DNA of 64,000 bases. Origin: Sphingomonadales bacterium (GTDB lineage Bacteria > Pseudomonadota > Alphaproteobacteria > Sphingomonadales > Sphingomonadaceae). The notes beneath the pieces were generated by a model, which searched no databases, had not been told where the DNA came from, and worked only from the letters and a program-made list of their open reading frames with translations. This document shows, piece after piece, positions 13,057 to 31,283 of the stretch (position 1 is its first letter; each line of letters opens with the position of its first letter). A program made the position numbers and the translations under genes. Location: the NCBI GenBank assembly GCA_027486415.1, contig JAIXPC010000002.1, forward strand, positions 868,001 to 932,000. Direction: 5' to 3'.

Positions 13057-13539
13057 ATGCCTTTCGAAGACGCGCCGGTGGCGAAGCTGCCGCGGTATCG
13101 CCATCGCCCCGGTTCACGGCTGGCGGTGAAGATGATCGGCCGTCGCAAGGATCGGCTGGCCTTTCTGGAGCAGCTGGCGCGCTGCGGCGATCCCGCCGTG
13201 GCTGCCGATCAGGCGGGTCTGCCGCTGTTCGAAGCCTTCCGCTATCGCGATGCCGACCCGAATTTCGGTGCGGAATGGCAGGCGGCGGTGAACTATGCCT
13301 GGGAACGGGTGGAAAGCCGCGTTCTCGCCGCCCTGCTGGGCCAGTTGGCAGACGGCGAAGTGCCTGCGGCGGTGGGCAATGGTGCCGGGCAGATCGATAC
13401 CAGGCTGGCGCTGGCTATCGTCAATCGCCGCGAAAAGCCGGTGGCGGTGACCGGCGGACGCCCCGCCGATGGCGCCGGCGCCGCGCGGCTGAGGGCCGAA
13501 CTTCGCGCCCTTGCTGGCCTGACTGACACCAAGAAATAA
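13057..13539 (+). CDS. Small terminase-like (GTA gp1-like position)
   Basis: ATG 13057 after GGGAGAGAG; MIGRRKDRLAFLEQLARCGDPAVAADQAGLPLFEAFRYRDADPNFGAEWQAAVNYAWE HTH-like; immediately precedes TerL. Confidence 0.6.
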   Translation: MPFEDAPVAKLPRYRHRPGSRLAVKMIGRRKDRLAFLEQLARCGDPAVAADQAGLPLFEAFRYRDADPNFGAEWQAAVNYAWERVESRVLAALLGQLADGEVPAAVGNGAGQIDTRLALAIVNRREKPVAVTGGRPADGAGAARLRAELRALAGLTDTKK

Positions 13540-13602
13540 CCGTTCCGGCACGTCCGGTCCCTGTTCCCACACGCCTGTGCGGCGTGAACGGAGACGACTG
13601 CC

Positions 13603-14916
13603 ATGACGGTTTCGCCCGACGACATCCCGCTGATCGAGATCTTCCGGCGCCTGTCGCCCGCCCGCCGCCAGAGTTTCCTGCGCCGTTTTGGCGAGGATCT
13701 GGTGCTGGACACCTTCATGGGCTCGGCCAGCCTCAGGCTCGCGCAGCGGCCGCCGGCGGGGGAATGGAGCATCTGGGTGATCCTGGCCGGGCGCGGATTT
13801 GGCAAGACGCACGCCGGGGCGGAATGGGTGCATGCCCGTGCCGCCGGCAACCGGCCGCGCCGCATTGCGCTGGTGGCGCCGACGCTGGACGTGGCGCGCG
13901 CGGTGATGGTGGAGGGGGAATCCGGCCTGATGGCGCGGCTGCCGCCGGGCCAACGCCTGATCTGGCACCCCAGCACCAAGCTGCTGAAATGGTCGAACGG
14001 CAGCGAGGCCCGGCTCTATTCCGGGGCAGAGCCTGACGGCCTGCGCGGCGGCCAGTTCGATTATGCCTGGGGCGATGAATTCGCCCATTGGCCGGGGGGT
14101 GAGGACACGCTGATGAACCTCAGGATGGCGACCCGGCTGGGGACCCTGCCGCAGATGCTGCTGACCACGACGCCGCTGCCGCTGGCCTGGTTGAAGGCGC
14201 TGATTGCCGAGCCGGACGTGGTGATCACGCGCGGCGGCACCGAAGACAATGCTGCCCATCTGCCAAGAACCTATCTGGCACGCTTGCAGCGGCGCTTTGG
14301 TGGCACAGCGACGGGCCGGCAGGAACTGGCAGGGGAAATTGTCGAGGATCTGGAAGGCGCGCTGTGGACGCGCGCCCTGATTGATCGCCAGCGGGTGATC
14401 ACGGCGCCCGCGCCGGTGCGGGTGGTGGTGGGCGTTGATCCGCCGGCCGGTGCGGGCACCTGCGGGATCGTCGTCGCGGCGCTGGCCGGCGACGGCCATG
14501 CCTATGTGCTGGATGATGCGAGTGTGAGCGGCCAGCGCCCGGAACAATGGGCGCGGGCCGTGGTGAAGGCCGCCGATCGCTGGCAGGCGGACCGGGTGAT
14601 TGCCGAGGTCAACCAGGGCGGTGCGATGGTGACGGCGATGCTGAAATCGGTCGATGCCGCATTGCCGGTGCAACCCGTGCACGCGGCGCGCGGCAAGGTC
14701 GCCAGGGCCGAACCGGTGGCCGCGCTCTATGGCGAGGGGCGGGTGTTTCATGCCGGCGTGTTTCCGGCGCTGGAAGATCAGTTGTGCGGCCTGTTGAACG
14801 ATGGCCGCTTTGCCGGACCGAGCGCGTCGCCCGACCGCGCCGATGCCGCGGTGTGGGCGCTGACCGCGCTCCTGCTGGGAGCGCGCGCCGCGCAGCCCGG
14901 CATCCGCAAACTTTGA
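13603..14916 (+). CDS. Terminase large subunit / DNA packaging ATPase
   Basis: Walker A ILAGRGFGKTHAGAEWV; YAWGDEFAHWP Walker B-like; nuclease region VVVGVDPPAGAGTCGIVVAALAGDG...VIAEVNQGGAMV...AVWALTALL. Confidence 0.93.
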   Translation: MTVSPDDIPLIEIFRRLSPARRQSFLRRFGEDLVLDTFMGSASLRLAQRPPAGEWSIWVILAGRGFGKTHAGAEWVHARAAGNRPRRIALVAPTLDVARAVMVEGESGLMARLPPGQRLIWHPSTKLLKWSNGSEARLYSGAEPDGLRGGQFDYAWGDEFAHWPGGEDTLMNLRMATRLGTLPQMLLTTTPLPLAWLKALIAEPDVVITRGGTEDNAAHLPRTYLARLQRRFGGTATGRQELAGEIVEDLEGALWTRALIDRQRVITAPAPVRVVVGVDPPAGAGTCGIVVAALAGDGHAYVLDDASVSGQRPEQWARAVVKAADRWQADRVIAEVNQGGAMVTAMLKSVDAALPVQPVHAARGKVARAEPVAALYGEGRVFHAGVFPALEDQLCGLLNDGRFAGPSASPDRADAAVWALTALLLGARAAQPGIRKL

Positions 14917-14935
14917 ACCTGAAAGGTTAGATGCC

Positions 14936-16057
14936 ATGCGATTGCCGTTTGTGCGGACGAAGTCCGTCGCGCCTGCTTCTGGCCCGCGCATTCCGAGCTG
15001 GGCGACGCCGCTGCGCGATGAGCCCGCCGGCTATGCCGGGCAGGTGCAGGCGGCGTTCCTGGCCAACCCGGTGGCGGCGCGCGCCATCCGCATGATCACC
15101 GAAAATGCCGGCAGCGCGCCGGTGGTCAGCACGCCGGCCGGGCATCCCGCCGTGGAACTGCTCCGCAGCTGCGGCTTTGGCGCCTCTGGCCCCGGTCTGC
15201 TGGAGACCCTGGCCGGGCATATGTTGCTGCACGGCAACGCCTTTGTGGACGTGGCCGTGGGCCATGATGGCCTGCCGGCGGCGCTGTTTGCGCTGCGCCC
15301 GGAACGGGTGAGCATCGAGGTTGATGACGAGGGCTGGCCAGCGACCCACGTCTATCGCGCTGGCTCTGCCGTCAGGCGTTATCCGGTGGGCGGCGACGGG
15401 GGTCTGCTCCACATCCGCAGTTTCCATCCGACCGATGATCATCATGGCGCCGGCTGCCTGGGCGCTGCGGCGAGCGCGGTGGCAGTGCACAACGCGGCGA
15501 CGACATGGAACAAGGCGCTGCTTGACAACGCGGCGCGGCCCAGTGGGGCCCTTGTGTACCAGCCTGGTGACGGATCGACGCTGAGCCCGGATCAGTACAG
15601 CCGCCTCCGGACGGAGATGGAGGCCGCCTTTGCCGGCGCGGCCAACGCCGGGCGGCCGATGCTGCTGGAAGGCGGATTGAGCTGGCAGGCGTTGAGCCTC
15701 TCACCCGCCGAGATGGATTTTGCCGGCATGCGGGAGGCGGCGGCGCGCGACATCGCGCTGGCGCTGGGCGTGCCGCCGCTGCTGCTGGGCCTGAAGGGTG
15801 ACAACACCTTTGCCAATTACCGCGAGGCCAATGTTGCGCTGTGGCGGCTGACCCTGCTGCCGCTGCTGGCCCGCCTGCTGGGGGCGCTTTCGGCGCATCT
15901 GCAGTGGTGGTGGCCCGGCCTTTCCCTGCGTGTCGATCGCGATGCGGTGCCGGCGCTTTCGGAAGATCGCGAACGGCTGTGGGCGCAGGTGAGCGGGGCG
16001 GATTTCCTCGATCCGGCCGAAAAGCGGCGGATCCTCGGGCTGGAGGACGGACAATGA
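14936..16057 (+). CDS. HK97-type phage portal protein
   Basis: ANPVAARAIRMITENAGSAP...HGNAFVDVAVGHDGLPAALFALRPERVSIE...REAAARDIALALGVPPLLLGLKGDNTFANYREANVALWR. Confidence 0.92.
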   Translation: MRLPFVRTKSVAPASGPRIPSWATPLRDEPAGYAGQVQAAFLANPVAARAIRMITENAGSAPVVSTPAGHPAVELLRSCGFGASGPGLLETLAGHMLLHGNAFVDVAVGHDGLPAALFALRPERVSIEVDDEGWPATHVYRAGSAVRRYPVGGDGGLLHIRSFHPTDDHHGAGCLGAAASAVAVHNAATTWNKALLDNAARPSGALVYQPGDGSTLSPDQYSRLRTEMEAAFAGAANAGRPMLLEGGLSWQALSLSPAEMDFAGMREAAARDIALALGVPPLLLGLKGDNTFANYREANVALWRLTLLPLLARLLGALSAHLQWWWPGLSLRVDRDAVPALSEDRERLWAQVSGADFLDPAEKRRILGLEDGQ

Positions 16058-16359
16058 CCGGTATCCTGGAAGGGCTGTTGGCGCAGGCCGAAGCACAGGG
16101 CGCGGCGCGCGTGACGTTGCAGGCCATCGTGGAGGAGGGCGCCGAAGCCGGGGCCGAGCGCGCCCTGAAGCGGCTGGGCCTGATGGACGAGCGCGCCGGC
16201 GATGATGTGCGCGAACTGCGCCAGCTGGTGCAGGGCTGGCGCGACATCAAGAAATCGGCGCTGCGGTCCCTCGTCGGTTGGGCGTCGCGCACGGTGGTGG
16301 CGCTGCTGTTGCTGGGGCTGAGTTTCAAGCTGGGCCTGTTGCAGGGTGGTCGGCCATGA
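16054..16359 (+). CDS. Small GTA gp4-like protein (DUF6127-like) with C-terminal hydrophobic helix
   Basis: MTGILEGLLAQAEAQGAARVTLQAIVEEGAEAGAERALKRLGLMDERAGDDVRELRQLVQGWRDIKKSALRSLVGW; between portal and protease. Confidence 0.6.
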   Translation: MTGILEGLLAQAEAQGAARVTLQAIVEEGAEAGAERALKRLGLMDERAGDDVRELRQLVQGWRDIKKSALRSLVGWASRTVVALLLLGLSFKLGLLQGGRP

Positions 16360-16766
16360 GCGCGCTGCGGATCGCCGGCTATGCGTCGGTGTTCGCGCTG
16401 CCCGATGCCAGCGGCGACGTGGTGATGCCCGGTGCCTTTGCGGGCGCTGCGGCCCCGGTGCCGCTGCTGTGGCAGCATCAGCCCCACGAACCGATCGGGT
16501 TCGTCGACAGCCTGGCAGAGGATGCACGCGGCCTCAGGATCACCGCCACCATCGTTGATGAAGGCCGCGGCGGGCAGGCGGCGGCGCTGGTGCGGGCCGG
16601 CGCGATGACGGGATTGAGCTTTGGATACCGGGTCAAGGCCGCCAGCCCGGCCCGGGGTGGCCGCCGCCTGGAGCGGATCGAACTGGTTGAGGTGTCACTG
16701 GTGACCTTCCCGATGCAGCGGGAGGCACGGGTGCTGGGCTGGCAAGAGGAGCAGACGCATGGTTGA
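16356..16766 (+). CDS. HK97-family prohead protease
   Basis: LRIAGYASVFALPDASGDVVMPGAFA...PLLWQHQPHEPIGFVD...GLSFGYRVKAA...RRLERIELVEVSLVTFPM. Confidence 0.93.
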   Translation: MSALRIAGYASVFALPDASGDVVMPGAFAGAAAPVPLLWQHQPHEPIGFVDSLAEDARGLRITATIVDEGRGGQAAALVRAGAMTGLSFGYRVKAASPARGGRRLERIELVEVSLVTFPMQREARVLGWQEEQTHG

Positions 16767-17763
16767 AGTGAAATCGGAAATGCTGGCCGCCGTATTCGAC
16801 GCGGCCGAAGTGGGCACGGCCACGGTGGAAACGCCGCTGGCACGCCCGGCGCTGGAGGCCAAGGCCGCCACCATCACGCCGCCGGCCAAGGGCGGTTCGG
16901 CGGTGCCGCTGGACATCGATGCGGTGATCAACCGCGTGTTGCTGGCCGCATCGCCGATCCGTTCGATCGCGCAGGTGGTGGATATCGGTTCGGCCAATTA
17001 TCGCCGGCTGATCACCACCAGTGGCGTCGTTTCGGGCTGGGTTTCGGAAACGCAGGCGCGTCCCGAGACGGACACGCCGAATTTTTCGGAAATCGCGCCG
17101 CCGATGGGCGAGCTTTACGCCAATCCCGCCGCCAGCCAGGCGATGCTGGATGATGCCGGCTTCAACGTGGAAGCCTGGTTGGGCGAGGAGATCGGCCGCG
17201 AATTTGCCCGCGCCGAAGGCGTGGCGTTCGTGACGGGCGATGGCGTCAACAAGCCGCGCGGGTTTTTGAACGCCCCCAATGCCGCCACGGCGGACGCCAC
17301 GCGCCCGTTCGGCACGTTGCAGTTCCTCACCTCGGGCGCGGCGGGGGGCTTTGCTGCCACCAACCCGCAGGATCGCCTGATCGACATGGTGCACGCGCTG
17401 GCCAGCCCCTATCGCCAGGGCGCGGTGTGGGTGATGAACAGCGCCACGCTGGCACGCATCCGCAAGTTCAAGACGACCGATGGCGCCTTCATCTGGCAGC
17501 CGGGCCTGGGGCCGGAACAGCCGCAGACGCTGCTGGGCCATCGCGTCGTCGAGGTGGATGCCATGCCCGACGTGGCCGCTGACAGCCTGTCGATCGGGTT
17601 TGGCAATTTCCAGGCCGGTTACCTGATCAGCCAGCGCGCCGAGACCACGGTGCTGAAGGACCCGTATTCCAACAAGCCCTATGTGCATTTCTATGCCACC
17701 AGGCGGGTTGGCGGTGCGGTGCTGGACAGCCGCGCCATCAAGCTGATGCGCTTTGCCGTGTGA
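16759..17763 (+). CDS. HK97-fold major capsid protein
   Basis: SPIRSIAQVVDIGSANYRRLITTSGVVSGWVSETQARPETDTPNFSEIAPPMGELYANPAASQAMLDD...FVTGDGVNKPRGFL...DPYSNKPYVHFYATRRVGGAVLDSRAIKLMRF. Confidence 0.94.
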   Translation: MVEVKSEMLAAVFDAAEVGTATVETPLARPALEAKAATITPPAKGGSAVPLDIDAVINRVLLAASPIRSIAQVVDIGSANYRRLITTSGVVSGWVSETQARPETDTPNFSEIAPPMGELYANPAASQAMLDDAGFNVEAWLGEEIGREFARAEGVAFVTGDGVNKPRGFLNAPNAATADATRPFGTLQFLTSGAAGGFAATNPQDRLIDMVHALASPYRQGAVWVMNSATLARIRKFKTTDGAFIWQPGLGPEQPQTLLGHRVVEVDAMPDVAADSLSIGFGNFQAGYLISQRAETTVLKDPYSNKPYVHFYATRRVGGAVLDSRAIKLMRFAV

Positions 17764-17769
17764 TCCCCC

Positions 17770-17805
17770 GGTGCCGCCGCGCTGGTGATCCGGCGCGGCG
17801 GCACC
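17770..17805 (+). promoter_or_regulatory. Perfect 13-bp hairpin immediately downstream of the capsid stop codon
   Basis: GGTGCCGCCGCGC (17770-17782), 10-nt loop, GCGCGGCGGCACC (17793-17805); no U-tract. Confidence 0.7.
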
Positions 17806-17868
17806 ACCCCCGATTGTCGCAACATCGATCACGCCCCGGCCAGCTGGCCGCCGGGCCGGAGACCGCCC

Positions 17869-18360
17869 ATGCCCAACAATATCACCGCCCCTGCCGGGGG
17901 CACGATCTTTGCCACCGACGATGTGGGCGGCGTGCATTACCCGTTCGCCAAGCTGGCCTTTGGCGCCGAGGACGTGGCGGTGGCGGTGGCCGATGCGGCT
18001 GGCGCGCGCCTGCCGGTGGCGGTGGGCGGCACGGTAAGCGTGGCTGGCGCGGTGACGGTGCCGACCATCGCCACCACCACCCGCGCCTATGATTATGCCG
18101 GTGGCCAGCGCCTGACCACCACTGGCGCCGGCCAGGTGCGTTCGGCGGCGGTGCTGGCGACCGAAGTGCTGCTGCACGCATCGGTGCGCGGGTTTTTCCG
18201 GGTGGGTGACGCTGCCGTGGCGGCGAGCGTGGGCGCCGGATCGATCCCGCTGGAAACGGGTGAGAAATTCCACCTGCGGCTGGTGAGCGGCCAGTTCGTC
18301 AGTTTCGTGCGCGACGGCGCCAGCGATGGCAGCCTGACCATCATGCCGGTGCTGGCATGA
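17869..18360 (+). CDS. Hypothetical, beta-rich (decoration/fiber-associated candidate), first ORF of inserted cassette
   Basis: MPNNITAPAGGTIFATDDVGGVHYPFAKLAF...FFRVGDAAVAASVGAGSIPLETGEKFHLRLVSGQFVSFVRDG; position after capsid. Confidence 0.6.
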   Translation: MPNNITAPAGGTIFATDDVGGVHYPFAKLAFGAEDVAVAVADAAGARLPVAVGGTVSVAGAVTVPTIATTTRAYDYAGGQRLTTTGAGQVRSAAVLATEVLLHASVRGFFRVGDAAVAASVGAGSIPLETGEKFHLRLVSGQFVSFVRDGASDGSLTIMPVLA

Positions 18361-18581
18361 TCAGCCTGGGGCGCGTTGGCGCGGTGGGCGGATCGCGCGG
18401 GCGCGCCATCATGGCCGCCCCGGATTTCGCACTGTCAGGAACGACGGTGGCAACGACATGGGGCGTCGTCACTGTGGGCACGCTGACCCCGATCAACGCG
18501 CCCCCAGGGGCTTATTTCCTGCTGGTTGAGGGCACCGCTGCCAGCGGTGACGAAGCCGGCCTTGCGGTGGTGAACGGCTGA
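18357..18581 (+). CDS. Small hypothetical cassette protein
   Basis: 74-aa ORF with 4-bp overlap upstream and 1-bp overlap with the downstream ATG. Confidence 0.5.
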   Translation: MISLGRVGAVGGSRGRAIMAAPDFALSGTTVATTWGVVTVGTLTPINAPPGAYFLLVEGTAASGDEAGLAVVNG

Positions 18582-21235
18582 TGGCGATCCAGGTCCAGAC
18601 TTTGAATGCCACCGATCTGCGGCTGGCGACGGCGTATCCCAAGCGCAGTTACGCGACGGCGTTGAGCGTTGGTGGTGCCGGCGGGCAGGTGGTGGGCCAC
18701 TGGCACGGCGTGTGGGTGCGGCTGCCGGCCACCTATGCCGGATCGGGTCGCCCGGCGCTGATGGGCTGGGATTTCGGCGGCACGGGCGCGTTCAACACCA
18801 CCCAGGACTGCGTGATCCGCGTGCCGCAGGACAGTTTTGCCACCACCACGATCCGGCGGCGGTTGCAGATCACCTATGGTTCGGGAAGCCAGGCCTTTGC
18901 CGGCACCGAAGGCAATATCAGCGGCATCGATCAGATCGGCTATGGCGTGCCGACCCTGATCGTTGCCGGCGTCACGAACATCGGCACCAATGCCGCACCG
19001 GTGTGGCGCAACTGGGCTGCGATCTGCCCCACTGGCGGCACGCCGGCCAGCATGGTGGCGGCAACGGCAACCGCGCCGGCCTATGTCACCGGCACCACCG
19101 GGCGCTTGTTCCACCAGGTGTTCGTGCGGCAGGGCAGCAGCACCATCGTCGGCACCGCGCTGGAAGAGGCCGTGCTGGTGACCGGCGACTTCCCGTGGGA
19201 CACGCTGAACAACCGCCCGCACCACTCCGCCCTGCAGGCGCTGGCCGGTGCGGGAGCCAACCCGTTTCTGGATTACGCCGGGCTGGTGGCAGCACAGAAC
19301 GCCGGCAACCTGCCCTATCCGAACCTGCGTGCCGAAGGCGGGGCGCAGGGGCGCGGCACCATCGAGTTCCGCTTTTCCCTGAGCAATCTGACGACGGGGT
19401 TGATCAACCTGGGCGCGCAGGCCGGGCAGAACCTGGCCGAAAGCGGCGCCGCGGGCGGACTTGCCGACGTGGCCAGCATCGTGCCGCCACACTGGACCGG
19501 CGGTGCGCCGACGATCAGCGAGCCGGCGGTGAAGTTCATCGGCGGGCGCGGCCTGCGCGCCTATACGGTAGCCGGCACCTGGCTTGCCGGCACCACGACG
19601 CTGCAACGGCGCTGGGAGGTGACGGCGACGGGCGCGGCCGTGCCGGGGTTTGATTGGGCGACTGTTGGCACGTTCGGCAGCGGCGTGTGGAGCGATACCG
19701 CCACGCTGCCGGTGGGCGGGCCCTATGCCCTGAAGATCCGCGATCCGGGCGATGCCGCGCGCACCGCCGAAAGCGGCGGCTGGCTGGTGGGCACCGTGGT
19801 GCTGACCCACGGCCAGTCGAGCATGGACCAGGTGACATTTGGCGAGGGCGACGGATCGGGCAATCCGCTTGGCCTCAACCGTCTGGGCCTTGCGGTGGAT
19901 GCCGGCGCCATCGGTGTGCTGCTGCGATACAGCAACCCCGGCAGCGGGCCGACATGGTCAACCGCGCGGCCGATCATCACCGTCGGCACCATGGCCGGCG
20001 GTACCACGCCGGCTGTTGCCCACGGCGCGGTGGCGATGCTGAACGAATGGAACGCGCGCAATCCCGCCCATCCGCTGTTGATCGCCAATGTCGCGATCGG
20101 TGGCACCGGCATGCCGGATTGGGCCAACAACATCGCCGCCTATTCCGGCAGCGTGGGCAGCGGCAATGGCAGCTGGCTGTTCATGGGAACGATCGGCGCC
20201 GTGCCGGATGCCACCAGCGGCAACAGCAGCGGCGTCATGGAGGTGATGGCGCAGACGCTGGGCCGCCATGTTGATGTCCATGCGCTGATGTGGGCACCCG
20301 GCATCGCCGATGCGTCGGCTGATCGGGCGCTGTATGTCGCCCGAACGGATGAACGGTTCAGCAATGCGGCCGGCGCGCCGTGGCTGGTGTTTCCGGTGTG
20401 GCGCATCGCCCGCGACGTGAATGATGCCAGCGGCAGCCCGACGCGGCGGATGCGGCATCTGGATTTCATCGCCGAACTTGGCTGGCGCGGCCTGCAGGGG
20501 CCATGCTGGCTGGATCCGGTGATGGTGGGGGCCATCGGCCACAGCGCCTATACCAATGGCAACAACGTGGTGGCCGGCCAGCCTGGCGACCAGAACCATG
20601 TTGGCCAGGCCCGGCTGGGGCGCAGCATCGGGCGGGCGCTGGCCTGGGCGTGGGATCGCCGCGTCAAGGTGCATGGCGGCCGGCTGCTGAGCGCCTATTT
20701 CGGCGACGGCACGCGCACCACGATCGAGATCGATCTGGGCCGGCAACTGCGAACGCTGAACGGCGCTGCGCTGTCAAACCAGTTCTGGATCAGCACGGAT
20801 AACGGCGTGAACTGGTCGCAGGCCGGTTTCAGCGTGGCACTGGCGCGCGGCAACACCGCCGCGATCCTGACGACGACGGGCGCAGCCTTTCCCGCGGCGA
20901 ACGTGCGCGTGGAATATGCCTGGAATTTCCCGTTTTCCGACGGCACCAACCCGCCGGAACTGAGCGCCGAAACCAATCTCTACGGCCTTTTGTATGACAA
21001 CCAGACCCATCGCGGCAGCATCAACCTGGCGGCCGGGGCGCGGGCCGGCACGCCGTTGCAGGGCATCAACCGCAGCGGGGCGGGCGTCGCCGGCCTGCCG
21101 GTGCTGGTGAAGGGCGCGGCGCGGCTGGTGACCAGCGAGCGCTTTTCCGGCCCGCGCACCATCACCGCCCGGCTGATGGCGGCCGATGGCGTGACGGTGC
21201 TGCGCGAACGCACGCTGGCGATTTCGGCAAGCTGA
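18581..21235 (+). CDS. Large SGNH-hydrolase / sialate O-acetylesterase-like fiber or spike protein
   Basis: 884 aa; block-I-like GWLVGTVVLTHGQSSMDQV (19802 onward), LIANVAIGGTGMPDW, DxxH in QPGDQNHVGQARLGRSIGRAL (about 20585), as in the GQSNM/DxxH esterase pattern. Confidence 0.7.
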   Translation: MAIQVQTLNATDLRLATAYPKRSYATALSVGGAGGQVVGHWHGVWVRLPATYAGSGRPALMGWDFGGTGAFNTTQDCVIRVPQDSFATTTIRRRLQITYGSGSQAFAGTEGNISGIDQIGYGVPTLIVAGVTNIGTNAAPVWRNWAAICPTGGTPASMVAATATAPAYVTGTTGRLFHQVFVRQGSSTIVGTALEEAVLVTGDFPWDTLNNRPHHSALQALAGAGANPFLDYAGLVAAQNAGNLPYPNLRAEGGAQGRGTIEFRFSLSNLTTGLINLGAQAGQNLAESGAAGGLADVASIVPPHWTGGAPTISEPAVKFIGGRGLRAYTVAGTWLAGTTTLQRRWEVTATGAAVPGFDWATVGTFGSGVWSDTATLPVGGPYALKIRDPGDAARTAESGGWLVGTVVLTHGQSSMDQVTFGEGDGSGNPLGLNRLGLAVDAGAIGVLLRYSNPGSGPTWSTARPIITVGTMAGGTTPAVAHGAVAMLNEWNARNPAHPLLIANVAIGGTGMPDWANNIAAYSGSVGSGNGSWLFMGTIGAVPDATSGNSSGVMEVMAQTLGRHVDVHALMWAPGIADASADRALYVARTDERFSNAAGAPWLVFPVWRIARDVNDASGSPTRRMRHLDFIAELGWRGLQGPCWLDPVMVGAIGHSAYTNGNNVVAGQPGDQNHVGQARLGRSIGRALAWAWDRRVKVHGGRLLSAYFGDGTRTTIEIDLGRQLRTLNGAALSNQFWISTDNGVNWSQAGFSVALARGNTAAILTTTGAAFPAANVRVEYAWNFPFSDGTNPPELSAETNLYGLLYDNQTHRGSINLAAGARAGTPLQGINRSGAGVAGLPVLVKGAARLVTSERFSGPRTITARLMAADGVTVLRERTLAISAS

Positions 21236-21246: not shown

Positions 21247-21432
21247 ATGATCCTGACCCATTTCCTCGCCCTTGCCGGCCTGCCGCCAGCCGTGATCGCG
21301 GCCGATGCGGGCCTGCTGCCGCTGGCCAGCAGCGCCGCCCCGCTGAGTGTTGGCGGTGGTGGCAGCGCGGCACCGCCTGCGTCCATCGTGGTGCGGACGC
21401 GCGCGCCCGTGCTGCCGGTGCGGCAACCCTGA
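21247..21432 (+). CDS. Small hypothetical cassette protein
   Basis: 61-aa ORF tightly packed between neighbours on the same strand. Confidence 0.4.
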   Translation: MILTHFLALAGLPPAVIAADAGLLPLASSAAPLSVGGGGSAAPPASIVVRTRAPVLPVRQP

Positions 21433-22645: not shown

Positions 22646-22977
22646 TGGGCGCGGAAGTGGCAGGCGCGCTCGATCAGCGCGTGGTGATCGAACGCTGGCA
22701 GGGCAGCCGCGACGGCGCGGGCGATGACGTGGGCCAGTGGCAGGCGGTGGAGCGCGTGTTTGCAGCCGTGGCGCGCGATGGCGATGCGCGCGGGCAGGCG
22801 GCGGGTGATGCCGCACGATCGGGCCGGCGCTGGCGGGTGCGGCTGCGGACACGGGATGATCTCGATCTCGCCGTGCGGATCATCTGGCGCGACCAGATCC
22901 TGGCGGTGCGCGGCATCGATCGCGATCCCGGCGCGCCCGGCATCGTGACGCTTTGGTGTGATGGGAGACCGGCATGA
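22645..22977 (+). CDS. Phage head closure / head-tail joining protein (GTA gp7-like)
   Basis: LDQRVVIERWQGSRDGAGDDVGQWQAVERVFAAVARDG...VRIIWRDQILAVRGIDRDPGAPGIVTLWCD. Confidence 0.8.
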   Translation: MGAEVAGALDQRVVIERWQGSRDGAGDDVGQWQAVERVFAAVARDGDARGQAAGDAARSGRRWRVRLRTRDDLDLAVRIIWRDQILAVRGIDRDPGAPGIVTLWCDGRPA

Positions 22978-23180
22978 AACTGATCGACATGGTGAAACGG
23001 GCGGGTCTGGCACTGGCGGCGCAGGCGCTGGCCCAGCTGCGGGCGCGGGTGGCGCGGCGACTGGGCGTTGCGGACAATCGCGATGACGGCGTGGCCATTC
23101 CGCCTGACGTGCAGGCGCGGCGGCGCGGCAATCGCCAGCGGCAGGCTGATGCCGATCTGCTGTGGCCGGGTGAGCGGTGA
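22974..23180 (+). CDS. Small hypothetical protein
   Basis: 68-aa ORF with 4-bp overlap to the upstream gene; charged C-terminus. Confidence 0.5.
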   Translation: MKLIDMVKRAGLALAAQALAQLRARVARRLGVADNRDDGVAIPPDVQARRRGNRQRQADADLLWPGER

Positions 23181-23563
23181 TGGCCGCCGGCCTTGCCATG
23201 CAGAAGGCGGTGGTGTCGGCGCTGGCCGACATGCCGGGCCTGACCGGCGTGTATGACGGCCCGCCCGCCGATGCGGCCGCTCCCTATGCGGTGATCGGGC
23301 CGGATCTCGTCACCGATGCCGGCACCAAGACGGGCGAAGCCCATGATCACCGCGTCGTGGTGACGATCTGGGATGATCGCCCCGGCGGCGCCCGCGTGCA
23401 GGGGCTGCTGGGTGCGGCGGAGGCGCGGCTGCGCGCCCTGGCCGGGGCATGGGATGGCCACCGCATCGTCTGGGCGCGGCTGGTTCGGGCCGGGGTGGGT
23501 GCGGCGGAGGACGGCTGGCGTCCCGGCGTGATCGAGATGCGGCTGCGCAGCGAGCAGATGTAA
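23180..23563 (+). CDS. DUF3168 tail completion protein (GTA gp8-like)
   Basis: MQKAVVSALADMPGLTGVYDGPPADAAAPYAVIGPDLVTDAGTKTGEAHDHRVVVTIWDDRPGGARVQGLLGAAEARL. Confidence 0.88.
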   Translation: MAAGLAMQKAVVSALADMPGLTGVYDGPPADAAAPYAVIGPDLVTDAGTKTGEAHDHRVVVTIWDDRPGGARVQGLLGAAEARLRALAGAWDGHRIVWARLVRAGVGAAEDGWRPGVIEMRLRSEQM

Positions 23564-23583
23564 GCGCGAAAGGACCAACGAAC

Positions 23584-23991
23584 ATGGCAATGGAAAAAGG
23601 GGCCGCCTTCCTTTTGAAGGTCGGCAATGGCGCGGCTGTGCCGGTGTTTTCGACCGTGGCTGGGCTGCGGACGACGCAGCTGACGGTGAACACCGAAACC
23701 GTGGTGGTGACCAACCAGGGATCGGGCGGCTGGCGCGAGCTGCTGTCGGGGGCCGGTGTGCGATCCGTTTCGCTGTCAGGGTCGGGCGTCTTTACCGGAT
23801 CGTCCGCCGAACAGCGGGTGAAGGCGACCGCGCTGTCGGGCCAGATCGATGATTACCAGGTGCAATTCGAAAGCGGCGAGACGATCACGGGTCGATTCCA
23901 GATCGCACGGCTGGATTATGCCGGCGATTTCAATGGTGAGCGCACCTACAGCCTGCAGCTGGAATCGAGCGGCCCGGTGGTGGCGGCGTGA
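23584..23991 (+). CDS. Phage major tail protein, TP901-1-like (GTA gp9-like)
   Basis: EKGAAFLLKVGNG...VFSTVAGLRTTQLTVNTETVVVTNQGSGGWRELLSGAGVRSVSLSGSGVF. Confidence 0.9.
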   Translation: MAMEKGAAFLLKVGNGAAVPVFSTVAGLRTTQLTVNTETVVVTNQGSGGWRELLSGAGVRSVSLSGSGVFTGSSAEQRVKATALSGQIDDYQVQFESGETITGRFQIARLDYAGDFNGERTYSLQLESSGPVVAA

Positions 23992-24287
23992 TCGCCAACC
24001 CCGTTCGCGGCGAGGCGCAGCTGGTGCTGGGCGGGCGCGCGTTGCTTGTGCGCCCGACATTCACGGCGCTGGTGGCGGCCGAGGCCGAACTGGGGCCGTT
24101 GTTTGCCCTGTGTGAGCGGGCGGCGGCCGGGCAGCTGACCCTGGCCGAGATGGCGGCGCTGCTGTGGCACTGCACGCCCGATGCCGGCCCGCGCGAGGCG
24201 TTTGGCGAGGCGTTGCTGGCGGGCGGGCTGGCGCAGGCAACGCCGGCGCTGCGCGTGCTGCTGGGCCAGATCCTGGCCGGACAATGA
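23988..24287 (+). CDS. GTA gp10-like tail assembly chaperone
   Basis: ANPVRGEAQLVLGGRALLVRPTFTALVAAEAELGPLFALCERAAAGQLTLAEMAALLWHC. Confidence 0.85.
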   Translation: MIANPVRGEAQLVLGGRALLVRPTFTALVAAEAELGPLFALCERAAAGQLTLAEMAALLWHCTPDAGPREAFGEALLAGGLAQATPALRVLLGQILAGQ

Positions 24288-24487
24288 GCTTTGCCGATGC
24301 GGCGCGCGGCGCCGCGCACGTGGCCGCTGCCGCCCTGGGCTGGCGGCCGGCGGACTTCTGGGCGGCGACGCCGGCAGAGCTGGTGACGGCGCTGGGGCTG
24401 GATGCGCCGCCAGCCGCAACGGTGAACCGCGATGCCCTGGCCTCCCTGATGGAGCGATATCCCGATGCAGACCGAACCGATCGATGA
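24284..24487 (+). CDS. rcc01693-family small tail protein
   Basis: FADAARGAAHVAAAALGWRPADFWAATPAELVTALG; position between gp10 and gp11. Confidence 0.78.
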   Translation: MSFADAARGAAHVAAAALGWRPADFWAATPAELVTALGLDAPPAATVNRDALASLMERYPDADRTDR

Positions 24488-25031
24488 TCTGGTGGTGCGC
24501 GTGCGCGCCGATACCGGCGGGTTCCTGGCCGGCGTGAACGACATGCAGCGCACGCTGGAAGGGCCATTTGCCGCCGGGATCGAGCGGGCGGGCGGAGGCC
24601 TGTCGCGCGCGCTGGGCCGGGCCTTGTCGGATGGCAAGCTGGGCTTTGACGATCTGCGCCGGCTGGCGCTGTCGGCGCTGGCCGACATCACGCAGGGTGC
24701 GCTCAGGCTTGATCTGGGCGGGCTGTTGGGTGGCGGCAAGGGTGGCGGCCTGATCGGCGGGCTGGTCGGCAGCCTGCTCGGCCTGCCGGGACGAGCCACG
24801 GGTGGTCCGGTGACGGCGGGGCGGCCCTATCTGGTCGGTGAGCGCGGGCCGGAGCTGTTTGTGCCAACCGCTGCCGGACGGGTGGAGGCCAACGGCGCTG
24901 CCGGCGGTCGGGCTGTGAACATCACGGTGAACGTGGCGGCCCCGCGCGATGCCGGGCCGGGCGTCATGCAGCAGACCGGCAACCAGGTCGCCCGCGCCGT
25001 CGCCCGTGCCATCGATCGGGCCCGGCCATGA
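24465..25031 (+). CDS. Very short tail tape measure protein (GTA gp11-like)
   Basis: VRVRADTGGFLAGVNDMQRTLEGPFAAGIERAGGGLSRALGRALSDGKLGFDDLRRLALSALADITQGAL...GLPGRATGGPVTAGRPYLVGERGPELFVPTAAGRV. Confidence 0.85.
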   Translation: MQTEPIDDLVVRVRADTGGFLAGVNDMQRTLEGPFAAGIERAGGGLSRALGRALSDGKLGFDDLRRLALSALADITQGALRLDLGGLLGGGKGGGLIGGLVGSLLGLPGRATGGPVTAGRPYLVGERGPELFVPTAAGRVEANGAAGGRAVNITVNVAAPRDAGPGVMQQTGNQVARAVARAIDRARP

Positions 25032-27382
25032 TGCGCTGGTGGCTGGCAAGGCCTGACGATCAGGGTGCGACGCGCTGGGTGAAGCGCTTTGATCCGCGCT
25101 GGTGGCTGGTGGATTTTCCGCGCCCGATGATGGCCAGCGTCGTCACCGAGGGCGACGAGACGGTGGCGGTGCAGCTGGAATTCCAGCGGCGGGCCGATCT
25201 GGCCGGATTGATCTGGGAATCAGCCGACCGCTGGAGCCATCCCCTGTGTGCGCTGGAAACGCGGCGAGATTACCGCGGGCTGCTGTGGCGGTTCCGCTGG
25301 CAATCATCCGGCGCGGTGCTGCCGCTGGATGCGGTCAACGGCCCCGTGCTCACCATCGAGGGCCGCGATGAAAGTGGCGCGGCGCGCACCTGGTATGTGC
25401 GGCTGTGGAACTATGCCAGCGGTAGCCCGACCGATGCCGAGATCAGCCTTGATTTCGATGCGCTGAACGGAGGCTTCCTGCTGCCGGGCGAGGCCGATCC
25501 GGTGTGGGCCGGCGATATCGACCGATTGTTCATCAGCCTGGTGCCGGACGGTCATGACGGTGTCGACGCGCCGCTGCCGGTGGTGGCGAGTGGCAGTGTG
25601 CGGCTGACCAACCGGCAGGTGGATGGCCCCGGCGCGGCGCTGAAGGCGGGCGCGCCGTTGCTGGGCGAACATGGCCTGCGGCTGTGCACGGCCTATGACG
25701 ACATTTACAATCAGACGCCGGAGCGGGTGCTGGAACAGGCGCTGCTGCTCGGCTGGCGCGGGGCGGTCACGCACTATCTGGGCATGAGCCATTTCATGGC
25801 GTTTCTGCCCGATGGCGCGGGCGGTTATGTCGTTGATCCGGCGCGGCCGCTGTGCGGGCCGGCGGTGGCGTGGCACGCGGATTTCCTCGCCCGCGCACAG
25901 GCACTGGGCTTCGCGCCCATCCTGTCCCTCTCGATGGAATTGCTGGCCCAGCACTGCCCGCCGGCGTGGGCGCAGCGGGATTCGACCGGGGCCATCGGGC
26001 TGACCGGCTGGTCGCCGCCGTCGGCGCTGCTCTCTCCTTGCCACACCGGGGCGCAAGCCTGGTTGCAGGCGGTGGTGGCGGCGGTGATGGGGCTGGCGCT
26101 GGCAGCAGGGTGCGCGCCGGCGTTCCAGGTGGGCGAACCATGGTGGTGGGTCGGCCCGAATGACAGGCCCTGTTTCTACGATGCGGCGGCCACGGCGCGC
26201 TGGCAGGCCGAACAGGGCGCGCCGCCGCCGGTGATGGCCGACATCAAGGGCAACAAGAGCGCGGCCGAACGCGCCTTCCTCGATTGGTGCGGCGCGCGGC
26301 TGGCCGAGGCGACGGCAGGCATGACCGCAGCGGCACGCGCTGCTGCGCCCGGCACCGTCACGCACCTGCTGTTCTATGCGCCGCAGGTGCTGTTGCCCGA
26401 TCGCCCGGATCTGGCGCGCGCCAATCTGCCGGCGGGGTGGGCGGCGCCCGCCTTCGATGTGCTGCAGCTGGAGGACTACACCTTCGTCACCAGTGGCAAC
26501 CAGGCCGGGCAGGCGAGCGGCCGGGCGCTGGTCGAAGCGCAACTGAGCTATCCCCGCAGCGCCCAGCATTATCTTGCCGGGTTCGTGCTCGATCCGGCCG
26601 ATGCCGCCGCGCAGTGGCCGCGGATTGCCGACGCCGCCGCCGCGGCCACTGCGCTTGGGGTGAGCGAGGTCTTTGTCTGGGCCTGGCCGCAGGTGGCGCG
26701 CGACGGCTTCACCCCGTTCCGCATTGCCGCCGAGGAGGATGCGATGACTGCGTTTCACGATGTGCGTTTTCCGCTGGAGCTGGGCTTTGGCGCCGCCGGT
26801 GGCCCGGCCTTTTCCACCCAGGTCGTCGTCACCGGATCAGGGGCGGAGCAGCGCAATGCCGAATGGAGCGATGCGCGGCTGGAATATGATGCGGGGCTGG
26901 GCATCCGTTCCGAGGAGGATCTGAAGCGGCTGGTCGGCTTTTTCAGGGCGCGGCGCGGGCAGGCGCATGGGTTTCGCTTTCTGGATCCGCTCGACCACAG
27001 TTCGGCGGGCGATAGTGGCGATCCTGCACCGACCGATCAGCGGCTGGGCACGGGCGACGGCGGCACCACCCGCTTTGCCCTGGTGAAACATTATGGCGAC
27101 GCCAGCCTGCCCGACGAGCCGCCGCAGACGCGGCGTATCACGCGGCCAACGGCCGGCAGCGTGCGCGTGGCGGTTGGCGGCGTCGAAGTGTCGGGCTGGG
27201 TGCTGGCCGACGGCGGCTTCATCGATTTTGCGGCGGCCCCGCCTGCGGGCGCGGCGATCACCGCCGGCTATCGCTTTGATGTGCCAGTGCGATTTGCCAC
27301 CGACCGGATCGAGGTGTCGATCGCCGGCTGGCGGGCGGGCGAACTGCCGTCGGTGCCGCTGATCGAGATAAGGGAGGGGTGA
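25028..27382 (+). CDS. DUF2460 (GTA gp12-like distal tail) protein fused to a large N-terminal TIM-barrel/glycoside-hydrolase-like region
   Basis: C-terminal about 212 aa FHDVRFPLELGFGAAGGPAFSTQVVVTGSGAEQRNAEWSDARLEYDAGLGIRSEEDLKRLVGFFRARRGQAHGFRFLDPLDHSS is DUF2460; about 570 preceding aa in the same frame include FQVGEPWWWVGPNDRPCFYD and LEDYTFV. Confidence 0.85.
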   Translation: MMRWWLARPDDQGATRWVKRFDPRWWLVDFPRPMMASVVTEGDETVAVQLEFQRRADLAGLIWESADRWSHPLCALETRRDYRGLLWRFRWQSSGAVLPLDAVNGPVLTIEGRDESGAARTWYVRLWNYASGSPTDAEISLDFDALNGGFLLPGEADPVWAGDIDRLFISLVPDGHDGVDAPLPVVASGSVRLTNRQVDGPGAALKAGAPLLGEHGLRLCTAYDDIYNQTPERVLEQALLLGWRGAVTHYLGMSHFMAFLPDGAGGYVVDPARPLCGPAVAWHADFLARAQALGFAPILSLSMELLAQHCPPAWAQRDSTGAIGLTGWSPPSALLSPCHTGAQAWLQAVVAAVMGLALAAGCAPAFQVGEPWWWVGPNDRPCFYDAAATARWQAEQGAPPPVMADIKGNKSAAERAFLDWCGARLAEATAGMTAAARAAAPGTVTHLLFYAPQVLLPDRPDLARANLPAGWAAPAFDVLQLEDYTFVTSGNQAGQASGRALVEAQLSYPRSAQHYLAGFVLDPADAAAQWPRIADAAAAATALGVSEVFVWAWPQVARDGFTPFRIAAEEDAMTAFHDVRFPLELGFGAAGGPAFSTQVVVTGSGAEQRNAEWSDARLEYDAGLGIRSEEDLKRLVGFFRARRGQAHGFRFLDPLDHSSAGDSGDPAPTDQRLGTGDGGTTRFALVKHYGDASLPDEPPQTRRITRPTAGSVRVAVGGVEVSGWVLADGGFIDFAAAPPAGAAITAGYRFDVPVRFATDRIEVSIAGWRAGELPSVPLIEIREG

Positions 27383-28188
27383 GGGCGATGCTGACCGATG
27401 ATCTCACCCATCTGGCGCTGTGCTGGCGGCTGGTGCGCCGTGATGGCGCGGCGCTGGGGTTCACCAGCCATGATCTGCCGCTGATGGTGGATGGCCTGCG
27501 CCATGACAGCCGGCCGGGAATGTCCGCCTCGGCCGTCGTGCTGGGCAGCGGCATCGGCGCCGACGACATGGAGGTAGCCGGCGCGCTGTCGGCCGACGCG
27601 CTGTCGGCGGCCGACCTTTTGGCCGGGCGCTGGGATGGCGCCAGCCTCCGCCTGTTCCTGGTGGACTGGCGCGATCCTGATGGCGGCAAGGTCGAACTGG
27701 CGCGCGGCACGCTGGGTGATGTCGCGGTTGGCAGTGGCGGGGATGCCGGCTTCAGCGCCGAGCTGATCGGCCCCGGCGCCGCCCTGGCGGCAAGCGCGGT
27801 CGAAAGCTGCTCGCCGGAGTGCCGGGCCGAACTGGGCGATTGGCGCTGCCGCGTCTCGCTGCGCGGGCGCGAGCTGGTGGCGACGGTGGCGGCGAGTGAT
27901 GGCGATCGGGTGCAGATTGCCGGCATTGCCGCTGCCGATCATGCCCATGGCGGGTTGGCCGTGCTCGATGGCGGCAGCGCCGGCCTGGTGCGCCGCGTGC
28001 TGGCCACAGATGGCAACTGGCTGGTGCTGGATGAACCGATCAGTCTTGGGACGGGCGCGCGGGTGCACCTGCGCGAAGGTTGTGACAAGCGTTTCGCCAC
28101 CTGCCGCGACCGTTTTGGCAATGCCGCCAATTTCCGTGGCGAGCCGCACGTGCCGGGGGGTGACCTGCTCACCCGTTATGCGCTGTGA
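27379..28188 (+). CDS. DUF2163 baseplate hub-like protein (GTA gp13-like)
   Basis: LALCWRLVRRDGAALGFTSHDLPLMVDGLRHDSRPGMSASAVVLGSGIGADDMEVAGALSADALS...CDKRFATCRDRFGNAANFRGEPHVPGGDLLTRY. Confidence 0.93.
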   Translation: MRAMLTDDLTHLALCWRLVRRDGAALGFTSHDLPLMVDGLRHDSRPGMSASAVVLGSGIGADDMEVAGALSADALSAADLLAGRWDGASLRLFLVDWRDPDGGKVELARGTLGDVAVGSGGDAGFSAELIGPGAALAASAVESCSPECRAELGDWRCRVSLRGRELVATVAASDGDRVQIAGIAAADHAHGGLAVLDGGSAGLVRRVLATDGNWLVLDEPISLGTGARVHLREGCDKRFATCRDRFGNAANFRGEPHVPGGDLLTRYAL

Positions 28189-28607
28189 GCGCGCATCGCA
28201 TCACCCGGCGGCGGCTGGCTGCCATCGCCGCGGCCCGGGCCGGGGTGGGCACGCGCTTTCGCCCGCAGGGCCGCAGCGTTGACATCGGGCTGGACTGCAT
28301 CGGCGTGGCGCTGCTGGCGGCAGCGGGGGCGCGGGTGCGCCTTGGGCCGGTTCCGGCCTATGCGCTGGGCGGTGATCATGCCGTCGTTCTGGGCCAGACG
28401 CTGCGGACCCTGGGGTTGCGGCGCGTGCGGCGGGGCGAACCCGGCGATCTTGTCGAATATCAGCTTGGCCCCGGCCACCGCCACCTCGCGGTGATCAGCG
28501 AGGCCGGCATCATCCATGCCCATGCCGGCCTCGGCCGCGTGGTGGAAGGGCCGGCCCCGGCAGACTGGCTGGTGTCGGCGTGCTGGGCGCTGCCGGGTAT
28601 CAGATAG
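28185..28607 (+). CDS. NlpC/P60-family peptidase (GTA gp14-like)
   Basis: DIGLDCIGVALLAA (Cys), GDLVEYQLGPGHRHLAVISEAGIIHAHAGLGRVVE (His); GTG start. Confidence 0.85.
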   Translation: MSAHRITRRRLAAIAAARAGVGTRFRPQGRSVDIGLDCIGVALLAAAGARVRLGPVPAYALGGDHAVVLGQTLRTLGLRRVRRGEPGDLVEYQLGPGHRHLAVISEAGIIHAHAGLGRVVEGPAPADWLVSACWALPGIR

Positions 28608-28617
28608 GAATTTCACG

Positions 28618-30768
28618 ATGGCAACATTAGTGCTGGGGGTGGTGGGTCGGGCCGTGCTCGGCCCGGTCGGCGGGCTGGTCGGCACGCTGCTGGGTGGTGT
28701 GGTAGATCGCCGCCTGCTGGGGGGCGGCGGCGGCCGCGCCGGCGCGCGTCAGGCCGCGCCCGAATTGCAGGCTGCCAGCTATGGCGAGCCGTTGCCGGTG
28801 GTGCGAGGCCGGATGCGGGTGAGCGGCAATGTCGTGTGGGCGGCACCGGTGCGGGAGACGACCACGCGCAGTGGCGGCGGCAAACGCGGGCCTGCCACCA
28901 CCAGCTATGCCTATTCGGCGAGCTTTGCCGTCGCGTTGGCGGCGCGGCCGATCGTGGGGATTGGCCGCGTGTGGGCGGACGGCAAATTGCTGCGCGATGC
29001 CGGCGGCCAGTGGCTGCAGCCGGTGACGATGCGGCTGCATCAAGGAGGAGAGCGGCAATTGCCCGACCCCTTGATTGCGGCGGCGGAAGGCGATGCTCCG
29101 GCCTTTCGCGGAATTGCCTATGCCGTGTTCGAGGATCTGGCGCTGGCCGAATTTGGCAATCGTCTGCCCAATCTGTCGTTTGAACTGATCGCTGACGATG
29201 GTCCGGTCGCCCTGGGATCCGTCCTGGGCGATCTGGCCGCCGGGATTGGCGTCGATCTGCCGGTGCGTGGCGATTTCCCGGTGGTGACGGGTGTCCATAT
29301 CGGCACCACCGGGCCGCTGGGGGATGCGCTGGCACCGGTGCTGAAGGCAACGGGTGCCGTTATGGCCGGCGGGCAGGCGCTGGTCGGGCCCGGCCTGGCG
29401 GCAGTGACAATCGACGCGGCGGGCGCCGCCGATGCGGACGCGCCGGGCGGCCGGAAGCCGCGTGATCGCCAGCGCCGCGCCGCAGCGGCCGCCACTCCCG
29501 ATGCCATCGAACTGGGCTATTATGATGTCGATCGCGATTATCAGCCCGGCCTGCAGCGGGCGCGGCTGCGGGTGGGTGGCCGGGTCGACGGCGATGGCCT
29601 GCCGCTGGCGTTGACGGCAGCAGCGGCGAAGTCCCTGTGCGGCGACCGCTTGCTGCGGCTCGCGGCCGAACGGCAGCAACGCACGCTGCGGCTGCCGTGG
29701 CGTTTTCTCGGCATCGCGCCCGGCGACGTGCTGCGGCTGGACGGCGCCGACTGGCAGGTGCGGGAAACGCGTTTTGAACGCTTTGTGCTCGGCCTGGATC
29801 TGGTGCGCGTCGCCGCCATCCCTGCTCTGGCGGTCGCCAGCGATCCGGGCCGTGTGCTCGATCATGGCGACAGCGCCGCCGGCCCGACAACGCTCGCCGT
29901 GATGGATTTGCCACTGCTGCCCGGCGAGACCGGCGACACTCCGCGCCTGTGGGTTGCCGCTGCGGGGGCCATGCCCGGCTGGCGGCGCGCTGGAGTGGCG
30001 ATCAGCCTTGATGACGGTGCCAGTTACGAAGCGGCAGGCATGGTGCCGACAGCTGTTGCCATGGGCCGCGCCCTGACCGTGTTGCCGGGCGCCGATCCGG
30101 CAGGGTGGGACCGGCTGGGCCATGTCGATGTCGAACTGGTCGCCGAAACGATGTGGCTGGAAGACCGCAGCGAGGCATCGGTGCTCGCCGGCGCCAACAT
30201 GGGGCTGCTCGGTCAGGAGATCATCCAGTTCGCCGTCGCCGAAGCCCTGGGCAACCGGCGATTCCGCCTGTCTGGCTTGCTGCGCGGACGGCGGGGAACG
30301 GATCACGCCGTGGCCGGTCATGCCGTGAACGACCGCTTTGTGCTGTTGGATATGGCAGCGATGCTGGCACTGCCGATGCCTCTGGAACGGCTGGGACAGC
30401 CGCTTCTGGTGCGCCCCACCGGGCCTGGGGATGCCGGCACGCCGCCGCAAAGCGTGACGGTCGGTGCCGAGGCGATCCGGCCTCTGGCCCCGGTGCATCT
30501 GACCTGGTCACGCGTCGGCGGCGCGCTGGCCTTCCGCTGGGTGGCACAAAGCCGCGTCGGCTTTGGCTGGCCAGATCTTACCGACGTGCCGGCCGGTGAG
30601 GTGCAAGTCGCCTTCCGGGTGGTGCTGCGTGATACGGCGGGTGTGGTTGCCGAGGCGGAAACCGCCGCCGCGCAATGGAGCACGGCTGATCGTGCCGGGC
30701 CGTTGTGGCTGGACGTCGCTCAACTAGGGGCCACCCTCGGGCGCGCCGCCACCCTGTTCATCCCCTGA
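28618..30768 (+). CDS. Phage tail/host-specificity protein (GTA gp15-like, short form)
   Basis: GPVGGLVGTLLGGVVDRRLLGG...LQAASYGEPLPVVRGRMRVSGNVVWAAPVRETTTRSGGGKRGPATTSYAYSASFAVALAARPIVGIGRVWADGKLLRD. Confidence 0.9.
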   Translation: MATLVLGVVGRAVLGPVGGLVGTLLGGVVDRRLLGGGGGRAGARQAAPELQAASYGEPLPVVRGRMRVSGNVVWAAPVRETTTRSGGGKRGPATTSYAYSASFAVALAARPIVGIGRVWADGKLLRDAGGQWLQPVTMRLHQGGERQLPDPLIAAAEGDAPAFRGIAYAVFEDLALAEFGNRLPNLSFELIADDGPVALGSVLGDLAAGIGVDLPVRGDFPVVTGVHIGTTGPLGDALAPVLKATGAVMAGGQALVGPGLAAVTIDAAGAADADAPGGRKPRDRQRRAAAAATPDAIELGYYDVDRDYQPGLQRARLRVGGRVDGDGLPLALTAAAAKSLCGDRLLRLAAERQQRTLRLPWRFLGIAPGDVLRLDGADWQVRETRFERFVLGLDLVRVAAIPALAVASDPGRVLDHGDSAAGPTTLAVMDLPLLPGETGDTPRLWVAAAGAMPGWRRAGVAISLDDGASYEAAGMVPTAVAMGRALTVLPGADPAGWDRLGHVDVELVAETMWLEDRSEASVLAGANMGLLGQEIIQFAVAEALGNRRFRLSGLLRGRRGTDHAVAGHAVNDRFVLLDMAAMLALPMPLERLGQPLLVRPTGPGDAGTPPQSVTVGAEAIRPLAPVHLTWSRVGGALAFRWVAQSRVGFGWPDLTDVPAGEVQVAFRVVLRDTAGVVAEAETAAAQWSTADRAGPLWLDVAQLGATLGRAATLFIP

Positions 30769-30788
30769 TCCTTGAAAGGCCTGTCATC

Positions 30789-31283
30789 ATGCCCGCCTCG
30801 CCCCGCCTCGCCCTGCCGCTGCTTGCCGCTGGACAGGCCCAGAAGGATGTCACCCACAATGATGCCGTGCTGGCGATCGATCGCCTGCTGGCGTTGGCGG
30901 TGGCATCGCGTAGTGTGACCACGCCGCCGGCGTCGCCCGCACCGGGCACCTGCCATATCGTGCCCGCCGCAGGCGCTGCTGCCTGGGGTCAGCCGGCCGG
31001 TACGCTGATGCACTGGGTGGGCGATACTGGCTGGCAGTCGGTGGCGCCCCGCGACGGCCAGACCGCCCTGGTGGTGGACGAAGATGTGATGCTGGTGCAC
31101 CGCGGCGGTTGGCAGGCGAGCTGGCCGGTGGCTGGTCTGACGATCGGCGGGCGAACCGTGTTGGCCGCGAATCCTGTGGCCATCGCGCCACCGACCGGCG
31201 GAACTGTGGTCGATGCCGAAGCCCGTTCGGCGATTGCGGCCCTGATCACTGCCCTGCGCCAGATGGGCGTCCTCGCCCCGTGA
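30789..31283 (+). CDS. DUF2793 domain protein
   Basis: SPRLALPLLAAGQAQKDVTHNDAVLAIDRLLALAV...VGDTGWQSVAPRDGQTALVVDEDVMLVHRGGWQ. Confidence 0.9.
   Translation: MPASPRLALPLLAAGQAQKDVTHNDAVLAIDRLLALAVASRSVTTPPASPAPGTCHIVPAAGAAAWGQPAGTLMHWVGDTGWQSVAPRDGQTALVVDEDVMLVHRGGWQASWPVAGLTIGGRTVLAANPVAIAPPTGGTVVDAEARSAIAALITALRQMGVLAP

Follow-up and report, generated by a model that had tools for sequence, protein, structure and literature searches.

Organization of the cluster

The window, that is the whole 64-kb stretch of DNA that was analysed, carries 25 collinear genes on the + strand, from the ATG of TerS at 13057 to the final stop at 31283; ORF reading finds all of them open, with zero internal stops. 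Overlaps of 1-4 bp occur at 13 of the 24 gene junctions and two further overlaps measure 8 and 23 bp, which bears out the coordinates, the collinear terminase-to-DUF2793 layout and the mostly overlapping genes described in the original prediction. Pfam, PHROGs and NCBIfam searches confirm the terminase, portal, S78 protease, HK97-type capsid, gp6/gp7 connectors, tail terminator, tail tube, GTA-gp10, rcc01693-type tail assembly chaperone (TAC), DUF2460, DUF2163, megatron and DUF2793 proteins; the order had been assigned to the type of RcGTA, the gene transfer agent (GTA) of Rhodobacter capsulatus, and this assignment stands, with weak scores for the NlpC peptidase, the TAC (NCBIfam) and TerS. 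The head-tail gene order and families, short tape measure, DUF2460 distal tail protein, DUF2163 hub and megatron are all shared with RcGTA.

The small terminase TerS (gp1; 13057-13539) is called from a weak PHROG match (phrog_4044, E 8e-4) and from a gene position that is kept in the genus; the large terminase TerL (gp2; 13603-14916) matches PF03237 and PF17289, is placed by a tree and is single copy in the genome. The portal (gp3; 14936-16057; PF04860, E 7e-66; TIGR01537) is followed by a DUF6127 protein (16054-16359; PF19622, E 4e-24), the prohead protease (gp4; 16356-16766; PF04586, TIGR01543) and the major capsid protein (gp5; 16759-17763; PF05065, E 1e-81). Beyond the fibre cassette lie the head-tail connector gp6 (22109-22645; TIGR02215 above cut-off), the head completion/closure protein gp7 (22645-22977; PF05521), a 68-aa ORF of no assigned function that is found in close relatives only (22974-23180), the tail terminator gp8 (23177-23563; PF11367, phrog_176), the major tail tube protein gp9 (23584-23991; PF06199, E 7e-41), whose start is taken from the ORF analysis, and GTA gp10 (23988-24287; PF11836).

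The rcc01693-type TAC (24284-24487; PF09550) scores 31 bits, below the NCBIfam cut-off of 56 yet above that of Pfam. The tape measure gp11 (24465-25031) matches phrog_30701 (E 4e-46) and other tape-measure PHROGs, and weakly the RcGTA_tape family NF058675; its 188 aa had been singled out as short, which is real but not unusual, as relatives have about 180-250 aa. The DUF2163 baseplate hub gp13 (27379-28188; PF09931, PF09356) is followed by an NlpC/P60-like peptidase, gp14 (28185-28607; TIGR02219, E 1e-4), a call that leans partly on position since the match reaches 22.6 bits against an NCBIfam cut-off of 81.9. The last gene encodes a 164-aa DUF2793 protein (30789-31283; PF10983, E 6e-21), again with a start taken from the ORF analysis.

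Fibre cassette between capsid and gp6

The interval between the capsid and gp6 genes holds six genes; RcGTA, by comparison, has its head-spike and tail-fibre genes at other places (PMC9638019, PMC13420450), and no prior description of such a cassette in Sphingomonadales GTA clusters was found in the literature searched. A 163-aa protein of unassigned family (17869-18360; seven relatives) and a 74-aa protein (18357-18581) are both kept beside the esterase-type fibre; the 884-aa predicted fibre itself (18581-21235) is followed by an uncertain 61-aa ORF that is present in close relatives (21247-21432), a 122-aa conserved protein (21457-21825) and a gp77-type fibre-tail adaptor (21840-22112; PF23148, E 2e-21; PDB 8jou chain D, E 2e-7). 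The 122-aa protein and the adaptor are met again at this position elsewhere in the genus, among part of the family's other genera and in three further families (f3, f4 and f7); families f6 and f8 and some genera lack them. The 122-aa protein has no relative among solved structures; its distant homolog on a viral contig of 53 kb is accompanied by no further GTA gene in the part that was examined.

The large ORF is esterase-like in the window and its close relatives. Read by eye, members of the genus's second group have a long protein unrelated to it in its place, locus L046 has a GQSN-motif protein and L060 a GDSL-like one. Relatives of the fibre gene in named genomes include Sandarakinorhabdus cyanobacteriorum and S. 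oryzae, from which the genus of the window genome is taken as Sandarakinorhabdus; S. cyanobacteriorum TH057 and S. oryzae NM-18 each have a related cluster as well as a related fibre. The cassette is considered old because this family and three more within the order have it, with only the large fibre ORF exchanged; the captured phage module of the original prediction is thus half right. A recent capture of the cassette was considered and rejected, given its recurrence at the same position in four families.

Sequence searches with the 884-aa protein found neither a relative in the phage collection nor a PDB or Pfam match. A model of its residues 325-706 (382 aa; 18 sequences; pLDDT 78.9) matches the CE20 acetylesterase XAC1771 (PDB 7kmm, E 3.6e-11) and a sialate O-acetylesterase (SASA; PDB 8f9o, E 4.6e-9); an AlphaFold2 model of the full 884 aa had a pLDDT of 41 and was set aside. 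The predicted fold and the GQS motif are shared with the CE20/SASA enzymes, and the invariant GQS contains Ser413, the likely nucleophile. The domain differs from those enzymes in sitting in a virion-type protein and in having a catalytic His that is not firmly assigned; in the homolog alignment His673 is not conserved, and His654 and Asp645 are invariant. Few genes of the cluster diverge as strongly as this one (dN/dS near 0.5 relative to the window, and 0.18 for a more closely related pair), yet its reading frame stays open in each of the 17 homologs read, which include partial ones.

From the modeled fold and its neighbors, the 884-aa protein is predicted to be a polysaccharide-deacetylating fibre located near the neck. 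It is somewhat unlikely, within a cluster that is still a GTA, that this protein instead decorates the head or is a loosely attached enzyme that degrades polysaccharide: RcGTA has both head spikes and TspA, a loosely attached biofilm-degrading tailspike (PMC13420450), and the cassette comes after the capsid gene, but the repeated pairing with a gp77-type fibre-tail adaptor and the swapping of the large ORF between relatives, as is seen for receptor-binding genes, argue for the neck fibre.

Baseplate proteins gp12 and gp15

The gp12 protein (25028-27382) is 784 aa long and consists of an N-terminal domain with homology to the tail sheath of phage N4, then a TIM barrel whose homolog is N4 Gp64, and last a DUF2460 distal tail domain (PF23844, PF23845, PF09343), with matches to chains of the N4 tail complex and of the RcGTA distal tail. 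Sequence homology to the PDB N4 tail complex places residues 8-91 with N4 gp65, the sheath protein that binds the receptor NfrA (PMC12892993), and residues 271-562 with N4 gp64. Unlike in phage N4, the gp65-like and gp64-like parts are fused with DUF2460 in one protein, and the match to gp65 covers no more than a small stretch at its N-terminus; unlike in RcGTA, gp12 carries a 560-aa N4-like extension.

The megatron gp15 (28618-30768; PF23666, PF13550) is 716 aa long and differs from that of RcGTA in having no GTA_TIM barrel, the missing stretch being about 600 aa. It scores 379.6 bits against the GTA megatron model NF048004, whose cut-off is 800, and is considered a shortened homolog of the full-length protein with a TIM barrel. 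In sampled clusters of other orders the situation is reversed, with gp12 of about 204-263 aa and gp15 of about 1100-1440 aa where complete; GTA_TIM was found in 10 of 12 scanned gp15 proteins from these clusters. Across the class the NCTSP TIM barrel occurs in four of 290 genomes, three of which belong to this family, including that of the window, and DUF2460 in 50 of 290. The contrast between gp12 and gp15 is at the level of the lineage and may reflect a single event. A move of one barrel between the two proteins is not claimed, as profile comparison of the gp12 N-terminal part with GTA_TIM gave no homology (probability 0.8%).

Differences in g12 and g15 length have already been noted for Sphingomonadales (PMC7360931); for the domain identities of the g12 extension and the loss of GTA_TIM no prior description was found in the literature searched. 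The non-canonical architecture that had been predicted is real in that gp12 and gp15 are rebuilt; it is mostly a Sphingomonadales-wide trait and not a peculiarity of this genome. Two further loci, L066 (G047:C14) and L150 (G220:C3), have a second kind of GTA-like tail module, with the N4-like NCTSP-TIM region joined to DUF2163 and not to DUF2460, so the N4-like module attaches to different baseplate proteins; the genome holding L066 also has a regular GTA cluster.

Promoter, regulators and lysis genes

A putative GTA promoter was located by motif search and alignment at 12924-12985 on the + strand; it consists of an upstream box AACCAAATAGGCAC, a -35 element TTGACT (12954), the palindrome AGCGTaACGCT and a -10-like TATAGA. 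Its 25-bp motif, TTGACNANCGNNACGCTNTNGGNTA (12954-12978), lies about 80 bp 5' of TerS and is the sole match in the window at up to three mismatches, with 0.01 expected. At up to two mismatches the motif is found in 23 of 24 genus genomes, once in each except G012, which has it twice; a reversed control pattern gave three matches in 61 genomes, and some two-mismatch matches, for example in G017, look like chance. Wherever the cluster start shares a contig with it the motif is 5' of TerS, and it persists beside the OmpA gene in the cluster-deleted genomes G001, G011 and G019. In four genomes of family f6 and in G031 it lies between a DUF6456 gene and the cluster. A generic sigma-70 scan did not detect this promoter, and the literature searched holds no prior description of one for Sphingomonadales GTAs.

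The palindrome occupies the position of the GafZ element of the Caulobacter crescentus GTA promoter, an inverted repeat between -35 and -10 that is likewise 5' of the first terminase gene (PMC11150451); the half-sites differ, being AGCGT/ACGCT at the candidate site of the window and GCGCCCG/CTGGCGC in Caulobacter. The second conserved box, AACCAAATAGGCAC, is immediately 5' of the motif and could be a second activator site.

As in RcGTA, holin and gafA-type genes stand apart from the cluster, with one GTA holin gene and one DUF6456 (gafA-type) gene present; in at least 10 relatives from several families the DUF6456 gene is within a few kb 5' of the cluster. The holin gene (L122, 6934-7347; G000:C8) adjoins an argC-like gene and a response-regulator gene, and no endolysin gene was recognised next to it. 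On another contig (L123; G000:C13) an XRE-like helix-turn-helix gene (5925-6491, - strand) is divergent from the DUF6456 gene (6540-7100, + strand) and could encode its repressor.

Evidence for vertical inheritance

The original prediction took the cluster for a vertically maintained GTA rather than a recent prophage, and listed a TerL tree and synteny with other sphingomonads among its checks and a nearby integrase with att sites among the refuting signs; the outcome for all three agrees with it. The TerL tree was built from 65 sequences: 10 from phages, 26 from other alphaproteobacteria and 29 from Sphingomonadales, the window among them. One branch (98/94) separates all 29 Sphingomonadales, with zero phages among them; phages are cleanly apart from the Sphingomonadales only, not from the GTAs that other orders carry, and two 'phage' records of metagenomic origin group among the other alphaproteobacterial TerLs. 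A host OmpA gene lies 3' of the cluster in every checked genus member with a long enough contig, and synteny comparison finds this adjacency in five other genera of the family as well. An integrase match occurs only once on this contig, some 800 kb from the cluster; the flanks share no repeat of more than chance length, and there is no tRNA within the 64-kb window.

Between the window and two close relatives pairwise dN/dS is 0.07-0.50 for all genes but two, the small ORFs of 61 and 68 aa, which have values of 0.40-0.76; dS is mostly 0.5-1.2 and so like or slightly above that of the flanking ompA (0.56-0.62). Median GC is 70.4% in the cluster and 66.1% in 30 window ORFs taken as host genes (p 2e-8); median side-chain carbon is 2.58 in the cluster and 2.73 in window ORFs outside it (p 4e-4). 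Raised GC and low carbon content, already reported for Sphingomonadales GTAs (PMC7360931), together with the lineage and the g12/g15 lengths, liken the cluster to the RcGTA-like clusters known from this order (PMC7360931, PMC9765227).

Four genomes without the cluster keep ordered remnants beside the same OmpA gene: TerS, protease, capsid and DUF2793 in G001; TerS, TerL and DUF2793 in G011 and likewise in G024; portal and DUF2793 in G019. G001 and G011 further share the serine-hydrolase gene that lies upstream at the window site. Such scars indicate that the whole cluster can go while its site remains readable, which aids the counting of GTA losses. Partly broken clusters lack portal to gp7 in G007 (L043) and capsid to tape measure in G027 (L047), and the gp12 and gp15 genes are split in G020 (L049) and G031 (L063); decay is hence common in the family, and from the frequent loss in sister genomes the benefit of the cluster appears not to be universal.

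The features of the RcGTA type found here are collinear head-tail homologs, TerL phylogeny, a fixed site, composition bias, and unlinked holin and gafA-type genes. Vertical inheritance as a GTA, and not a recent prophage, follows from the TerL tree, the conserved flank, the same-site scars, purifying selection, the single TerL and the unlinked holin and gafA-type genes. The region is accordingly read, with a probability of roughly 0.82 and as judged from its genes, as an intact RcGTA-type (type I) GTA head-tail cluster, vertically inherited in Sphingomonadales and maintained by selection.

Proposed function and rival explanations

Particle production and DNA transfer by the cluster are predicted to proceed as follows. 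A GafY/GafZ-type activator, the GafZ-type one probably being the DUF6456 protein encoded elsewhere, would act at the palindromic promoter to turn the operon on; TerS and TerL would pack chromosomal DNA into small heads, a short tail would be assembled, and a holin from elsewhere in the genome may aid particle release. Recipient contact would be made through two rebuilt parts: the esterase-domain fibre, held by the gp77-type adaptor probably near the neck and thought to deacetylate surface polysaccharide, and the gp12 ring, whose N4 sheath-like arms would stand in place of the megatron TIM barrel.

A GTA of the RcGTA type is already known in kind for Sphingomonadales; what is rebuilt here are the parts predicted to contact the recipient. 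New here are the N4-homologous module of gp12, with the absence of GTA_TIM from gp15, and the conserved promoter with its GafZ-like layout. It is tentatively hypothesized, at somewhat less than even odds, that the Sphingomonadales form a distinct GTA architectural class, in which an N4-type receptor-engaging module on the distal tail protein would replace the TIM barrel of the megatron, and an exchangeable cassette with a carbohydrate-active fibre anchored at the neck would set the surface polysaccharides, and hence the kin, to which DNA can pass. For recipient recognition by GTAs beyond Rhodobacter and Caulobacter, a third order now offers concrete, testable parts: the exchangeable fibre with its predicted esterase, the N4-like module of the baseplate and the conserved promoter.

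A GTA cluster that has recently become non-functional, with its genes open but regulation, lysis or packaging lost and heading toward the scars of its sister species, is an improbable alternative; it draws on the deleted or broken clusters of those species, on the short and unlinked DUF6456 protein and on the failure to see an endolysin gene beside the holin, and is opposed by the openness of all 25 genes, by dN/dS values well below 1 and by the perfect conservation of the promoter. A small prophage or phage satellite still spreading by itself is very improbable: every part is phage-like and IMG/VR lists similar clusters as viral contigs, but the same chromosomal site is used across genera and scarred there, the integrase, replication and repressor genes and the att sites of an autonomous prophage are absent from the cluster, and the kept viral-collection matches are nearly all of about 20 kb or less, some with the host OmpA gene.

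GTA clusters in viral collections

Among the IMG/VR loci (L161-L327), 77 fetched loci have at least 14 of the window's genes, on contigs nearly all of about 20 kb or less; 11 of the GTA-like loci have an OmpA-like gene and 16 the GTA promoter motif. Many 'viral' IMG/VR contigs are GTA clusters, and the filing of many such clusters as viruses is a warning to users of viral databases. MT840053.1 (L338), a record from human faecal samples that is labelled 'Bacteriophage sp.' and unverified, has a Sphingomonadales-type gp12 (52.6% identity) and probably represents part of a GTA.
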